Assembly (NCBI RefSeq): GCF_965638725.1
Contig: NC_134981.1
Span: 43,304,849-43,368,848 of the forward strand
DNA: 64,000 nt
From: Aptenodytes patagonicus
Taxonomy: Eukaryota > Chordata > Aves > Sphenisciformes > Spheniscidae
Direction of reading: 5' to 3'
In this document: positions 7,501-64,000 of the stretch, piece after piece
Layout: each line of letters starts with the position of its first letter
How positions within the stretch are numbered: the stretch's first letter is position 1
Notes under the pieces: model-generated
Database searches by the model: none
Seen by the model: only the letters and a program-made list of their open reading frames with translations
What the model was told of the DNA's origin: nothing
Position numbers and translations under genes: made by a program

Positions 7501-7518
7501 TGGCGCCCAACGTGGGGC
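7501..7518 (+). promoter_or_regulatory. Primer binding site, tRNA-Lys(1,2) type
   Basis: TGGCGCCCAACGTGGGGC lies 8 bases after the LTR. It is complementary to the 3' end of tRNA-Lys(CTT), the primer type used by betaretroviruses and foamy viruses. The following bases ACGAA nearly extend the complementarity; the tRNA complement would read TCGAA. Confidence 0.93.
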
Positions 7519-16782: not shown

Positions 16783-17432
16783 CTAATCCTCATAACAGTA
16801 CTCATTTCTCATTTCTTGTCCGTACGAGTCAGAAGTCTCTTCATTAAGATCAGGAGTAAGATCAGCCCTTCTACCCTGTCTGGGGAACTGCCCGCTGGAA
16901 ACTGGAGCAGCAATTTTCCTGGGAGAAACCCTTTCTGTGATTGTTTTCCCTTGCAGTTCACGTACCCGTGCCCCTAGGGCTGAGGTAGGTTTCCCATCCC
17001 ACCTCCTCATGTCCTCTCCGTGGTCACGCAGGTAAAACCATAGGGTGCCCCGTGGTGTGTACCCTTTATATTCTCTCTCTCGAGCAAAAGAACGCTGACT
17101 CCTAATAGCCGAGATACTGGTCCGTACAGGTGAGGAGTAGGACCTATCCTCTCTGAGTTGCTGGATCTCCCAGGACAGTTTCTCCACAGCCGAGATGGGG
17201 GAGGAAGAGAGAATTTCCTCATATTGCCGGAGTTGGCCAGCCAATTCATCCACTGTTTGTTGTCCGCCACATGGGTCGTGCATTTGGCTTCGTCTGGATC
17301 TTTGGATAGTTGTTCATTGTTCAGGTCACCATAAATCACCTCCAGCACAGCTAATTCTCTCAGAAACTGGATACCCTTCTCCATGGTGGCCCACTTGCCT
17401 GGGCGACATATGACATCTTCCTTGAAGGGAAG
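16783..17432 (-). pseudogene. gag: ERV gag, 3' half (left of centre, truncated)
   Basis: Encodes the capsid-like C-terminal half of Gag (blocks ELAVLEVIYGDL, REYKGYTPRGTLWFYL, KIAAPVSSGQFP), ending with a TAG that is in frame with pol. About 68-70 bp are missing at 17262 relative to the right arm. It continues through the palindrome loop to 17432, where orientation flips. No zinc-knuckle (CCHC) motif is present. Confidence 0.88.
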
Positions 17433-27242: not shown

Positions 27243-27260
27243 GCCCCACGTTGGGCGCCA
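27243..27260 (-). promoter_or_regulatory. Primer binding site, tRNA-Lys(1,2) type
   Basis: GCCCCACGTTGGGCGCCA on the + strand; mirror of 7501-7518. Confidence 0.93.
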
Positions 27261-37727: not shown

Positions 37728-37732
37728 CTCTG

Positions 37733-38279
37733 TGTCCTGGTTTCGGCAGGGATAGAGTTAAATTCCTTCCTTGTAGCTGGTACAGGGCTGTGTTTTGGAT
37801 TTAGGATGAGAACAAAGTTGATAACGCACCGATGTTTTAGTTGTTGCTAGGTAGTGCTTACACTAGCCAAGGACTTTTCAGCTTCCCATGCTCTACCGAC
37901 TGAGAAGGCTGCAGGTGCACAAGAAGCTGGGAGGGGGGCACAGCCAAAGTGGCCAAAGGGACATTCCATACCATGTGACGTCATGCTCAGTACATAAACT
38001 GGGGAAAGCTGGCCGGGGGGGCCACTGCTCAGGGACTGTCTGGGCATCGGTCGGCGGGTGGTGAGCAATTGCATTGTGCATCACTTGCTTTGTGTATTAT
38101 CATTATTATCATATTATTATTATCATCATTTTATTTCAATTGTTGAGCTGTTTTTATCTCAACCCACGAGTTTTTCTCACTTGTGCTCTTCCAATTCTCT
38201 CCCCCATCCCACCAGGGGAGGGGGGAGTGAGCGAGCGGCTGCGTGGTGCTCAGTTGCCGACTGAGGTTAAACCACTACA
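37733..38279 (+). mobile_element. LTR of the aberrant insertion
   Basis: 547 bp from TGTCCTGGTTTCGGCAGGGA to AAACCACTACA, with an intact CRE (37977-37984) and the TATA-like ACATAAAC downstream. Confidence 0.93.
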
Positions 38280-38287
38280 GTCCTTTT

Positions 38288-38363
38288 TGGTGCCCAACGT
38301 GGGGCACGAACCCACGACCCTGGGATTAAGAGTCCCATGCTCTACTGACTGAGCTAGCCGGGC
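38288..38363 (-). tRNA. Retrovirus-captured tRNA-Lys(CTT) copy (tRNA pseudogene)
   Basis: Read on the minus strand, these 76 bases form a complete cloverleaf sequence including the encoded 3' CCA. It starts GCCCGGCTAGCTCAGT, has anticodon-loop sequence CTCTTAA (anticodon CTT), and has a T-arm GTGGGTTCGTGCCCCAC. The base at tRNA position 58 is T instead of A, which also damages the B-box. It is contiguous with the primer binding site (38288-38305), so it comes from copying the primer during reverse transcription and not from an ordinary tRNA gene. A tRNA search would probably call it as a gene. Confidence 0.93.
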
Positions 38364-38971
38364 GAGCATATTGTCCATAGCCGTCCAGGTGAGCATATTG
38401 TCACCTGGCTGCTCCGATGCTGGGATAATGGAGCCAGTAGCCTGGAATTAGAGGGTAGGGAAGCCAAGCAGCTGGGATCCCTTTCTAGGGAAGGGGGCAT
38501 TGACAAAGCGATTGGAAAAGGGACACGAGTCCTCAGCCTTTGGAGGCGACTCTTGTCAAGCGTGAAGGAAAGGTATCCCTTCAAGGAAGATGTCATATGT
38601 CGCCCAGGCAAGTGGACCACCATGGAGAAGGGTATCCAGTTTCTGAGAGAATTAGCTGTGCTGGAGGTGATTTATGGTGACCTGGACAATGAACAGCTAT
38701 CCAAAGATCCAGATGAAGTCAAGTGCACACGACCCATGTGGCGGAAGTTTATAAGGAGCTCACCATCGTCATACGCCAACTCATCGGCAGTGATGACCTG
38801 GAAAGATGGAGAGGAACAAACAGTGGATGAATTGGCTAGTCAACTCCGGCAATATGAGGAAAGTCTCTCTTCCTCCCCCGTCTCGGCTGTGGAGAAACTG
38901 TCCCGGGAGATCCAGCAACTCAGAGAGGATAGGTCCTACTCCTCACCTGTACGGACCAGTATCTCGGCTAT
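38364..38971 (+). pseudogene. gag: gag fragment in the aberrant insertion
   Basis: The first 12 bases (GAGCATATTGTC) recur at 38391-38402, the proper gag position, pointing to two template jumps after the tRNA end. From there gag is open through VTWLLRCWDNGAS, the VKERYPFKEDV block and RTSISAI, stopping at CTATTAGGA, where the inverted LTR tip starts. Leader, N-terminus and repeat are missing. Confidence 0.88.
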
Positions 38972-39011
38972 TAGGAAGGAAATTAACTCTATCCCTGCCG
39001 AAACCAGGACA
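38972..39011 (-). mobile_element. Inverted 40-bp LTR tip
   Basis: TAGGAAGGAAATTAACTCTA through CCGAAACCAGGACA, the reverse complement of the first 40 bases of the LTR. The junction with gag shares TAGGA (38972-38976). Confidence 0.9.
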
Positions 39012-39409
39012 CTCTGTCTAAGGGAGTTGCCATAATTCAGTGAGAGTTTGGGAGAGAAAGGAAGGTGAAGAGGCAAAATGGTAGCAGGTGACAAACTTAA
39101 AAGATTGCTGTGGAACAGATTTTCAGGAAAATGGATCCAGACAAAAACTCAATTACTTAATGAAAATGATCCTGTTTCACTGTTAAAGCTTCTGGTAACC
39201 CATTAGAATAAGTCCCTAACCTATAAATCACCTTGTATTGCATCCTCAGCTGATGACCTAAAACCCTATGAAACTTCCAGTGACTAGTTTCTTCCTTTTT
39301 TAGTTCAGAAAAAGAGTGGCCAAAAGAAATCCTCCCCTTTATTATAGGTCTGAAAAATATCGGAAATTACTATATGTAACCAAATGCCAAAGGATGGCCC
39401 CTGAGCGGT

Positions 39410-51744: not shown

Positions 51745-51762
51745 GCCCCACGTTGGGCGCCA
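51745..51762 (-). promoter_or_regulatory. Primer binding site, tRNA-Lys(1,2) type
   Basis: GCCCCACGTTGGGCGCCA on the + strand, 8 bases from the 5' LTR. Confidence 0.93.
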
Positions 51763-57929: not shown

Positions 57930-59682
57930 ATGAGTGGCAGGGTGTGTGGGACAAGATGGGCAAGTACCTAGGCCAATGGGCACCCCCAGGGTTTTGGAAC
58001 TTCACCCCTGAGCAAGTGCAGAATCCTGAAAAGTTAGTAGAATATTTGGACAAAGTATGCCGTCACCCTGGCAACTCCAGAGAGATGCAGATCATTGCAA
58101 CGTGCTGGGGCCTGGCCCATGCCTACCGAGCCCTGTTCAACACTATTCAGTACCCTCAAAGGGAAGAGAAGGTCTCTGGCTCTGACAGTAAAACGACAAT
58201 CACTGCGGCCACTCAGACCCGGGCAACACGCCCTGCAGCCACTCCGACCCCAGCGACACGCCATGCAGCCACTCAGACCCCGGTGACATGCTCTGCGGCC
58301 ACTCCGACCCCAGCAACATGCTCTACGGCTACTCAGACCCCAGCAACAGGCCGCGCGAACACTCAGACCCCGGCGACATGCACTGCAGCTACTCAGACTC
58401 CGGCAACAGGCCCTGCGGCCATTCAGACCCCGGTGACAGGCACTGTGGCTACTCAGACCCCGGCAACAGGCCCTGCGGCTGAACCAAAGAACCAGCTTGT
58501 GCCGGTATCAGTCGCCCCTGTACACAAGAAGAAATCTTGGAAGCGGAAGTCGGCTAGTTTAGTAGAGGGAGGATGTAGCTTCTTCTAAAAGGGGGCTGGA
58601 GGAAGAAGTGTACGAGACAGACGACCCTGGAGAAGGGCCATCATGAGAACAGGAGGAGGAGAGCCGGTCGCTGATCGGGGAGGAAGAAGAGGAAGAACTC
58701 ATAAACAAGGCAGTGACCACCCGATCTCTATCCTTGAGTGAGCTGCGAGATACACGAAAAGATTTCAGCCGCCGTCCAGGCGAGCATAGTGTCACCTGGC
58801 TGCTCCGATGCTGGGATAATGGGGCCAGTAGCCTGGAATTAGAGGGTAGGGAAGCCAAGCAGCTGGGATCCCTTTCCAGGGAAGGGGGCATTGACAAAGC
58901 GATTGGAAAAGGGACACGAGTCCTCAGCCTTTGGAGGCGACTCTTGTCAAGCGTGAAGGAAAGGTATCCCTTCAAGGAAGATGTCATAAGTCGCCCAGGC
59001 AAGTGGGCCACCATGGAGAAGGGTATCCAGTTTCTGAGAGAATTAGCTGTGCTGGAGGTGATTTATGGTGACCTGGACAATGAACAGCTATCCAAAGATC
59101 CAGATGAAGCCAAATGCACATGACCCATGTGGCGGAAGTTTATAAGGAGCTCACCATCGTCATACGCCAACTCATTGGCAGTGATGACCTGGAAAGATGG
59201 AGAGGAACAAACAGTGGATGAATTGGCTAGTCAACTCCGGCAATATGAGGAAATTCTCTCTTCCTCCCTCATCTCGGCTGTGGAAAAACTGTCCTGGGAG
59301 TTCCAGCAACTCAGAGAGGATAGGTCCTACTCCCCACCTGTACGGACCAGTATCTCGGCTATTAGGAGTCAGCGTTCTTTTGCTCGAGAGAGAATATAAA
59401 GGGTACACACCACGGGGCACCCTATGGTTTTACCTGCGTGACCACGGAGAGGACATGAGGAAGTGGGATGGGAAACCTACCTCAGCCCTAGGGGCACGGG
59501 TACGTGAACTGCAAGGGAAAACAATCACAGAAAGGGGTTCTCCCAGGAAAATTGCTGCTCCAGTTTCCAGCGGGCAGTTCCCCAGAGAGAGTAGAAGGGC
59601 TGATCTCACTTCTGATCTTAATGAAGAAACTTCTGACTCGTACGTACAAGAAATGAGAAATGAGTACTGTGATGAGGACTAG
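57930..59682 (+). pseudogene. gag: gag of ERV A (5'-truncated, broken)
   Basis: Begins mid-gene at EWQGVWDKMGKYLGQW and is open through the repeat (about 58200-58480, nine or ten units) to a frameshift near 58562 (GTAGAGGGAGGATG). A TGA follows at CCATCATGAGAA (about 58642) as in the palindrome copies, and a further frame change lies near 59118 (CACATGACCC). The C-terminal part ends at TAG 59680-59682. Confidence 0.88.
58200..58480 (+). repeat. 30-bp coding minisatellite in gag of ERV A
   Basis: Nine to ten units of the 30-bp repeat, more than in the palindrome copies (about five) and fewer than in ERV B (about twenty). Confidence 0.88.
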
Positions 59683-61380: not shown

Positions 61381-61398
61381 TGGCGCCCAACGTGGGGC
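61381..61398 (+). promoter_or_regulatory. Primer binding site, tRNA-Lys(1,2) type
   Basis: TGGCGCCCAACGTGGGGC, 8 bases after the LTR, followed by ACGAAGGG. Confidence 0.93.
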
Positions 61399-61474: not shown

Positions 61475-64000
61475 ATGTTGGTTTCTCTGTTCTCGATATT
61501 GATTTGTATAATCTGCATCGCGCTCTTTTTCCTGCTGTACATGTTAAAGATTGGTGTTGGGTTTTGCAGTTTGCTGTGGTCTGCAGTGAATAGTAATGTC
61601 TCGCTTGTGAGGTTTGTTTTTAGAACATTGACCTTGACGTTTCTGTGGTATGTAAACTTCGCAATGAAGCCGTTACTGTAACATGGATACCATATCGTGG
61701 AGACAACTAGCAATTGCAGTAACTTTTCTGAGAGTTTTTTTACGGAGGAAATACAGAATGGCAGTGTCACTACCTTCTTCTATGATGTTTCCTCCTTCAT
61801 TACAGTAATTTTTCAGTATTTTGAGCATCCTTGGGCAGTTAAGATACTTCTATTAATACTTCTTGGGAATATTGTTTCGGTTTTGTCTAAAGTTGGTAAG
61901 CAATTTAAGAATATCATCCAGAGATCTGCCCCAAGGCTGAATAATTATGAGTGGCAGGGTGTGTGGGACAAGATGGGCAAGTACCTAGGCCAATGGGCAC
62001 CCCCAGTGTTTTGGAACTTCACTCCTGAGCAAGTGCAGAATCCTGAAAAGTTAGTAGAATATTTGGAAAAAGTATGCTGTCACCCTGGCAACTCTAGAGA
62101 GATGCAACTCATTGCAACGTGCTGGGGCCTGGCCCATGCCTACCGAGCCCTGTTCAACACCATTCAGTACCCTCAAAGGGAAGAGAAGGTCTCTGGCTCT
62201 GACAGTAAAACGACACGCACTGCGGCCACTCAGACCCGGGCAACAGGCCGTGCAGCCACTCAAACCCGGGCAACACGCACTACGGCCACTCCAACCCCGG
62301 CGACAGGCTCTGCGGCCACTCAGACCCCGACGACAGGCCCTGTGGCCACTCCAACCCCGGCGACAGGCCCTGCGGCCACTCCAACCCCGGTGACATGCAC
62401 TGCGGCCACTCCAACCCCGGCGACAGGCTCTGCGGCCACTCAGACCCCGGCGACAGGCCCTGCGGCCACTCAGACCCCGGCGACAGGCCCTGCGGCCACT
62501 CCAACCCCGGCGACATGCACTGCGGCCACTCCAACCCCGGCAACAGGCCCTGCGGCCACTCAGACTCCGGTGACATGCACTTGCACTGCGGCCACTCCAA
62601 CCCCAGCAACAGGCCCTGCGGCCACTCAGACTCCGGTGACATGCACTTGCACTGCGGCCACTCCAACCCCGGCGACATGCACTGCGGCCACTCCAACCCC
62701 AGCGACATGCACTGCGGCCACTCCAACCCCAGCAACAGGCCCTGCGGCCACTCAGACTCCGGTGACATGCACTTGCACTGCGGCCACTCCAACCCCAGCA
62801 ACACGCCCTGTGGCTGAACCAAAGAACGAGCCTGTGCCAGTATCAGTCGCCCCTGTACACAAGAAGAAATCTTGGAAGCGGAAGTCAGCTCGTTTAGTAA
62901 GGGAGGAAGAAGCTTCTTCTAAAAGGGAACCGGAGGAAGAAGTATACGAGACAGATGACCCTAGAGAAGGACCATCACGAGAACGGGAGGAGGAAAGCCG
63001 GCCGCTGATCGGGGAGGAGGAAGAGGAAGAACTCATAAACGAGACAGTGACCACCCGATCTCTATCCCTGAGTGAGCTGCGAGATATACGAAAAGATTTC
63101 AGCCGCCGTCCAGGTGAGCATATTGTCACCTGGCTGCTCCGATGCTGGGATAATGGGGCCAGTAGCCTGGAATTAGAGGGTAGGGAAGCCAAGCAGCTGG
63201 GATCCCTTTCTAGGGAAGGGGGCATTGACAAAGCAATTGGAAAAGGGACACGTATCCTCAGCCTTTGGAGGCGACTCTTGTCAAGCGTGAAGGAAAGGTA
63301 TCCCTTTAAGGAAGATGTCATATGTCGCCCAAGCAAGTGGGCCACCATGGAGAAGGGTATCCAGTTTCTGAGAGAATTAGCTGTGCTGGAGGTGATTTAT
63401 GATGACCTGAACAATGAACAACTATCCAAAGATCCAGACGAAGTCAAGTGCACACGACCCATGTGGCGGAAGTTTATAAGGAGCGCACCATCGTCATACG
63501 CCAATTCATTGGCAGTGATAACCTGGAAAGATGGAGAGGAACAAACAGTGGATGAATTGGCTAGTCAACTCCGGCAATACGAGGAAAGTCTTTCTTCCTC
63601 CATCGTCTCGGCTGTGGAGAAACTGTCCGAAAAACTGTCCCGGGAGATCCAGCAACTCAGAGAGGATAGGTCCTACTCCTCACCTATACGGACCAGTATC
63701 TCGGCTATTAGAAGTAAGCGTTCTTTTGCTCAAGAGAGAGAATATAAAGGATACACACCACGGGGCACCCTATGGTTTTACCTGCGTGACCACGGAGAGG
63801 ACATGAGGAAGTGGGATGGGAAACCTACTGCAGCCCTAGGGGCACGGGTACGTGAATTACAAGGGAAAACAATCACAGAAAGAGGTTCTTCCAGGAAAAT
63901 TGCTGCTCCAGTTTCCAGCGGGCAGTTCCCCAGAGAGAGTAGAAGGGCTGATCTTACTCTTGATCTTAATAAAGAAACTTCTGACTCATACGTACAAGAA
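61475..64000 (+). pseudogene. gag: gag of ERV B, nearly open, runs off the window
   Basis: ATG at 61475, hydrophobic start (LFSILICIICIALFFLLYML), then one TAA at 61679-61681. After that I find the same frame open to the last base, about 770 codons: FTPEQVQNPEKLVEYL, about 20 repeat units, KKKSWKRKSARL, acidic runs, VTWLLRCWDNGAS, ELAVLEVIYDDL, and REYKGYTPRGTLWFYL. The Arg codon that is TGA in the palindrome copies and ERV A is CGA here. A local KLSEKLS duplication lies near 63625. The gag end and pol lie outside the window. Confidence 0.85.
62215..62815 (+). repeat. Expanded coding minisatellite in gag of ERV B
   Basis: About 600 bp, roughly 20 units of 30 bp, each encoding an ATxTPATxxA-type decapeptide. 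Towards the 3' end a 66-bp higher-order unit (a 36-bp variant with an extra ACTTGC plus a 30-bp unit) recurs about three times. The length stays a multiple of three, so the frame is kept. Confidence 0.9.

Follow-up and report, generated by a model that had tools for sequence, protein, structure and literature searches.

The window analysed here, 64,000 nt of the genome of the penguin Aptenodytes patagonicus, raises the question of how a complete tRNA came to lie directly behind a retroviral LTR. The sole tRNA predicted in the window by ARAGORN is a tRNA-Lys(ctt) at 38288-38363 on the minus strand, and the same 76 nt, including CCA, yield the only Rfam match at gathering score (RF00005, 60.6 bits, E 1.2e-10). 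An earlier note had taken them for the whole primer tRNA-Lys(CTT), copied by reverse transcriptase to its 5' end into a provirus. Identity and origin of the copy agree with both predictions, the encoded CCA, the exact register with the primer binding site (PBS), the antisense orientation, the attachment to an LTR and a 5-bp target-site duplication; the carrier, in contrast, is not a whole provirus but a rearranged insertion of 1,279 bp.

Read on the plus strand, this aberrant 1.28-kb unit (37733-39011) consists of LTR, PBS, whole tRNA, a re-copied gag stretch, gag and an inverted LTR start. The 5' LTR (TGTCC...CTACA; 37733..38279, from BLAST and alignment) is followed by an 8-nt spacer (GTCCTTTT, 38280..38287) and the 18-nt PBS (38288..38305), which is of the tRNA-Lys1,2 type with one C>T change and at the same time the first part of the antisense tRNA, starting with the complement of CCA. 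The same 18 PBS bases are named tRNA-Lys1,2 in PMC8775094. Other PBSs in the window run into ordinary leader: those at 7501..7518 and 61381..61398 (both plus strand) are followed by ACGAAGGG and that at 51745..51762 (minus strand) by TCAAAGGG, a further one at 27260 being the palindrome twin of 7501. At 38280-38287 as well as in other copies, the LTRs end in ACA and the PBS begins 8 nt further on; trimming of the U5 end at integration would thus exceed the usual two bases.

The copy extends to tRNA nucleotide 1, in line with the earlier claim that it ends exactly at the 5' G, but nucleotides 1-3 (GGC) are by eye also common to the downstream gag sequence, so that the tRNA-specific part reaches at least to nucleotide 4. 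The adjoining junction (38364..38381, plus strand, delimited by eye) comprises the re-copied start of the gag piece plus a short filler and forms, again by eye, an imperfect tandem duplication of ~27 nt with the following sequence. The gag segment proper (38382..38971, plus strand) is 94.6-98.0% identical to the longest-matching other copies and begins ~1,288 nt past the PBS of the ordinary copy at 7501. It overlaps by microhomology (CTAtTAGGA/CTAcTAGGA) with the right end of the unit, where the initial 45 nt of the LTR, i.e., the U3 end, recur in inverted orientation (38967..39011, minus strand). In a Pfam search of the ORF across the 1.28-kb unit no family was found.

The unit is flanked by the duplication CTCTG (37728..37732 and 39012..39016). 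Ordinary insertions in the window, whose full-length family LTRs are 80-95% identical (BLAST), likewise show 5-bp duplications: GCATA at a solo LTR, ATGGT at the sister-type LTR 11279 and CCATG at the 5'/3' LTR pair 6946/21642. The LTR pair 52323/44368 has CTCTC/CTCTG (4/5 match), and no target duplication was found at LTR 37433. Since the duplications of ordinary insertions have the same length, the usual route of insertion is also the most likely one for this short DNA with its two U3-type ends.

The search for the PBS-to-tRNA junction proposed in the earlier note was performed with up to 3 mismatches across the window's own assembly (1.352 Gb), and all matches were fetched. The 23 sites retrieved (labelled from L001 onwards) represent 22 distinct insertions, one being doubled by a palindrome. 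In 19/22, an LTR end directly precedes the PBS, the exceptions being L017, L018 and L020. An ordinary host tRNA-Lys gene, a tRNA pseudogene or a SINE that came to lie beside an LTR by chance or later insertion would also be called as a tRNA by ARAGORN and Rfam, but would account neither for the encoded CCA nor for the exact PBS register behind an LTR end in these 19 insertions, and is hardly credible. tRNA genes have A at position 58, and a functional tRNA-Lys gene would lack an encoded CCA and be free of LTR linkage; the 38288 copy has T at position 58 (tRNA sense), encodes CCA and is LTR-linked. The outcome that the earlier note had named as refuting its reading, an ordinary tRNA gene, is thus contradicted by the LTR ends of these 19 distinct insertions.

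A second pattern, taken from the 5' half of tRNA-Lys(CTT) and allowing 2 mismatches at most, was found at 18 places in the whole assembly, 12 of which were already part of the junction set (11 distinct); the six additional ones were fetched as 172-base stretches. Five of these are LTR-linked (L073, L074, L075, L077, L078), whereas no LTR adjoins L076 within its 172-base stretch. Hence, 17 (16 distinct) of the 18 places are retrovirus-linked. In L074, the tRNA is joined to antisense LTR and no PBS is present. In L075, a different LTR end (CCACCACAGTAATTTT) precedes PBS and whole tRNA, so that read-through may also have occurred in another family. An ordinary host tRNA-Lys(CTT) gene was found by neither pattern in the assembly, only the best candidates having been scored; this absence may stem from limitations of the assembly or of the search.

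tRNA nucleotide 1 is reached in 9/22 insertions (L001, L005, L008, L009, L010, L013, L016, L018, L022), while the tRNA copy of the remaining ones stops between nucleotides 5 and 47. Two isodecoder types were copied, which differ by matched changes in the anticodon stem. Each insertion has its own junction: the 25 bases after the tRNA differ among all 22, the best pair agreeing at 15/25 and lying at different viral places, and the 13 switch points that were laid out consist of short matches or short fillers.

Plus-sense viral sequence follows the tRNA in ten insertions (L003, L005, L006, L008, L011, L013, L014, L015, L016, L018). In L006, L013 and L016 this is pol, followed by a normal 3' LTR, and the duplications are perfect; a normal 3' LTR is likewise reached in L018, where the duplication is imperfect. 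The mildest read-through is represented by L015 (1515-1525), where after ACGAA five tRNA-matching bases (CCCAC) replace GGGTTC before the ordinary leader resumes, with 108/109 bases equal to the ordinary copy L059. Such short scars may be common. Antisense viral sequence follows in L002, L007, L019 and L023, and a U5 end in L009, L012 and L020. In case of L001, antisense U6 snRNA (73 bits) starts from its 3' U-run directly behind tRNA nucleotide 1 and extends over ~66 nt (L001 1573-1639) into antisense gag. An inverted LTR start forms the right end in seven insertions (L002, L005, L007, L008, L011, L019, L021). No identity was found for the downstream sequence of L010, L017 and L022, nor for the 50 nt that precede the inverted LTR end in L021. 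In two insertions the tRNA is located at a 3' LTR, with the 3' end of pol in front of the LTR: beyond the LTR in L010 and after its first part in L017.

Both outer ends are readable in 11 insertions, with LTR termini recognised by eye (for L002 with the help of a 5-mer search). Perfect 5-bp duplications (chance 1 in 1,024 each) are present in 9/11: GTACC (L002), CTCTG (L005), GATGT (L006), AACCC (L009), CATTG (L011), GCGTG (L012), CCCTC (L013), CTGCT (L016) and CCCTC (L021). The duplications of L008 and L018 match at 3/5 positions only. At least one outer end is without a recognisable terminus in the other 11/22 (L001, L003, L007, L010, L014, L015, L017, L019, L020, L022, L023).

Multiple copies might also be explained by a single entry of the tRNA into a replicating element and its multiplication as a tRNA-carrying lineage, all the more since the 38288 copy has an identical twin. 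This twin of the 76 nt, however, lies ~3.5 kb beyond the window, on the opposite arm of a palindrome whose arms are 99.96% identical over the 9,981 bases compared, and the copies otherwise differ in tRNA end nucleotide, isodecoder type, downstream sequence and flanks, rendering such a lineage very improbable. The palindrome (centre near 17396, arms of at least 27 kb) spans window positions 1-44600 plus ~9.8 kb to the left and may be either a real amplicon or an assembly artefact.

The 38288 unit very probably derives from an env-less, tRNA-Lys(CUU)-primed retroelement of class III (ERV-L/foamy-like), as a product of reverse transcription that became integrated; it was formed by read-through and template switching, which recurred in this genome. 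Anatomy, junctions, duplications, the separate junction of each insertion and the rough frequency are read from the sequences themselves, whereas we infer the order of switches and the template strands as follows. Plus-strand DNA would start at the left end of U3, copy U3-R-U5 and the PBS, and, without stopping at a presumed m1A58, continue along the primer tRNA, not yet removed, as far as its 5' end. The 3' end would then switch template at short matches, at 38288 into gag with a local slip, and in a second switch move onto the plus-sense U3 end, thereby acquiring a second U3-type end. Finally, integrase would insert the short DNA with the 5-bp duplication of the family. The same accident happened ~22-27 separate times in the genome, with other template choices afterwards.

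LTR-pair differences amount to 1/540 (L006), 7/522 (L013), 11/537 (L018), 23/547 (L016) and 25/554 (L008), indicating that the events are spread in time, the most recent outcome being that with a single difference. The LTR-end-plus-PBS pattern occurs (up to 3 mismatches) at no fewer than 2,951 places, such that read-throughs account for 0.64% (19 LTR-linked) or 0.75% (all 22) of them, roughly ~0.7%, with the PBS count being a lower bound and read-throughs under ~28 nt as well as decayed ones being missed. Seven of the 23 junction sites lie on contig C33, though it represents 3.6% of the assembly; our guess is that this contig is an ERV-rich sex chromosome.

With respect to family identity, the best match of the integrase piece among solved structures is PFV integrase (54.6 bits), and the best matches of the RT piece, likewise among solved structures, are entries named Pr125Pol and peptidase A9/RT (142.7 to 130.6 bits; next 107), which we take to be foamy virus. 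RVT_1 and rve were identified by Pfam. There is no room for env in the one copy examined, where ~400 nt separate the end of the pol ORF (44766) from the LTR start (44368). Mammalian ERV-L in the strict sense use a tRNA-Leu primer, whereas the PBS of the penguin family is of the tRNA-Lys1,2 type. Based on sequence features, i.e., RT and integrase nearest to spumaviruses by match scores, absence of env (one copy) and 5-bp target duplication, the family is read as a probable class III member, ERV-L/foamy-like with a Lys primer. Viral contigs scanned with the junction, the LTR-PBS end, the U3 block described below and a pol piece contained no relatives, nor did bacterial and archaeal contigs scanned for the PBS. 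Tandem 30-bp repeats, the number of which varies between copies, are present in the leader/gag region at 58136-58569 and 62153-62844 of the window.

The earlier note had further regarded base 58 as altered, either by misincorporation opposite the modified base or by use of the viral ACGAA. The T in the tRNA sense stands, but the corresponding plus-strand A is a common allele of ordinary copies, and the single 38288 copy fits both options. Ordinary copies were sampled as the first 32 of 100 listed PBS places, each an exact match and located on contig C1. Of these, 19 carry A and 13 carry T opposite A58, and the four bases that follow read CGAA in 30, CAAA in 1 and TGAA in 1. The corresponding base in the 22 read-throughs, scored by eye, is A in 8, T in 13 and C in 1. 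Misincorporation is known to be caused by m1A, dA being one of the bases inserted, and its outcome varies with the next base (PMC4787781). Plus-strand DNA of HIV-1 can extend as far as psi55 or U54, and lentiviruses and spumaviruses possess an over-extension sequence that matches such extension (PMC13191261).

The plus strand could alternatively have stopped normally and later switched, within CGAA, from the viral ACGAA onto free or attached tRNA. The sequence CGAA is indeed common to virus and tRNA, an A at site 58 equals an ordinary viral allele, and T is an ordinary allele, too (13/32). This course of events is nevertheless improbable, since an extra switch at the same point would be needed in every event, and since viral lineage alone does not predict the base: L006 has T, whereas L002, with a 99.6% identical LTR, and the ordinary copy D60 have A.

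Recurrent change at site 58 was assessed on trees of 31 sequences, i.e., the 32 ordinary copies and three window copies minus L049, L058, L059 and L065, which did not align over LTR/leader. On the FastTree tree, site 58 requires 7 steps, the highest value among 54 two-state transversion sites (one with 6, the rest 1 to 3), and on the IQ-TREE trees 6 steps, the next transversion site having 3 or 4. An initial tree of 20 sequences, including L049 (not aligning in the LTR), likewise placed site 58 at the top of its transversion sites, with 5 steps. On the trees of 31 sequences, as many steps or more are needed by 2 to 4 of all 228 variable sites (site 58 included). Some family signal remains at site 58, since 16/500 label shuffles reach 7 or fewer steps (mean 9.85). 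The A/T mix could be an old polymorphism spread by recombination, with no re-reading of m1A58: retroelements recombine, and 1 to 3 other variable sites show equal or higher step numbers. In view of site 58 being the outlier among the 54 transversion sites, and of 32/32 copies having A or T with the following CGAA kept in 30/32, we consider this doubtful, while granting it a real chance of being correct.

The repeated A/T change rather suggests routine passage of m1A58, as the A/T mix in ordinary copies is to be expected if the base is re-read from the tRNA over many cycles. In the simplest joint reading, plus strands of the family would often pass A58, usually stop near U54 and occasionally continue through the whole tRNA; extension a few bases past A58 would be routine in the family, and complete copying of the tRNA its rare extreme.

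Next to the PBS, the LTR itself contains a sequence related to the primer. A 21-nt U3 block (37884..37904, plus strand) is complementary to the D arm and the start of the anticodon arm of tRNA-Lys; in LTR 6946 it has one mismatch versus the window tRNA copy, and 0/1000 shuffles gave a match as long (longest 14). The block is found at the same place in most family LTRs seen, with 0-3 changes in 17/23 fetched rows. Its conservation ranks 30 of 525 windows among seven copies, i.e., it is conserved, not outstanding. The LTRs of the read-throughs L014 and L021 have only a 6-edit match, and none was found in L018, L019, L020 and L023, the LTR being partial, elsewhere or absent in the stretch searched. 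An origin as captured tRNA piece was considered and dropped, the sister LTR 11279 having the flanks and part of the block, without 8 nt. As in Ty3, U3 thus carries a complement to the D arm of the primer, and a second, Ty3-like primer contact is conceivable as a hypothesis. That passage of m1A58 is the rule, with a stop near U54 and A/T rewritten each cycle, and that in addition the U3 block serves as Ty3-like D-arm contact, would be a long shot as a combined proposal. If true, the family would be a vertebrate retroelement whose primer site consists of two parts and whose copies keep a record of tRNA modification in the germline.

The biochemistry of such read-through is known, but is encountered here in the natural genomic record: the 38288 unit is one of a series of recurrent fossils of plus-strand read-through. 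The series thereby offers about two dozen natural records of a copying error that is known elsewhere from experiments in vitro and in cultured cells, and the fate of the read-through DNA is directly readable from them, i.e., rescue via viral sequence, inverted LTR ends, U5 or U6 RNA. The modification state of germ-cell tRNA may be naturally recorded in the A/T site opposite A58. For annotators, the series represents a warning, since tRNA-Lys(CTT)-pattern matches in this genome are mostly retrovirus-linked. An old proposal, reportedly by Ohshima and Okada, derives some SINEs from retroviral DNA primed by tRNA, and requires exactly such a tRNA read-through step. In a literature search with few subscription journals within reach, neither earlier reports of whole tRNA in integrated proviruses nor the exact host tRNA stretch were found.

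Among known systems, the Helenus TRIM (PMC10886601) resembles the penguin family as an LTR element with tRNA sequence and, in some cases, 5-bp duplications. In Helenus, however, the tRNA-like sequence is located inside the LTRs, inherited, and proposed to act as Pol III promoter (PMC10886601). The whole tRNA described here lies after the PBS, arising anew, and the LTR holds only the 21-nt antisense match, so that the Helenus arrangement of tRNA sequence inside both LTRs is not found. Chimeras of LINE-1 and U6 (PMC13174262) are comparable to L001 in that U6 is joined to a retroelement, a joining for which template switching is among the routes proposed; LINE-1 uses target-primed synthesis (PMC13174262), whereas in L001 the U6 sequence is attached to the copied 5' end of a primer tRNA that itself lies behind an LTR. 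Retention of tRNA primer sequence in retroviral DNA is also known from 2-LTR circle junctions (PMC5618025). These circles are unintegrated and their junctions are ascribed to defective RNase H activity (PMC5618025), while the whole tRNA is here part of integrated DNA. The bipartite PBS of Ty3 includes a U3 sequence pairing with the D arm of the primer tRNA (PMC5371799), similar to the U3 block; the Ty3 contact is reported from experiments, that of the penguin family would correspond to a sequence match only. In the over-extension sequence of lentiviruses and spumaviruses (PMC13191261), viral bases after the PBS match the tRNA beyond A58, as does CGAA (57-54) here, but in the penguin family the base opposite A58 alternates between A and T among copies. 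A parallel in terms of copying is provided by HIV-1 and its primer tRNA-Lys3, where the plus strand is described as running through the entire tRNA if the latter was transcribed in vitro, and as passing A58 in cells mutant for TRMT6-TRMT61A (PMC13191261). As in the penguin family, the plus strand of the fully copied strong-stop product 'P1' contains the primer tRNA past A58 to the 5' end. In the description of P1 given there, this product is listed as unusable for transfer, with strand transfer not completed (PMC13191261), whereas the penguin products became integrated in the genome after template switching.
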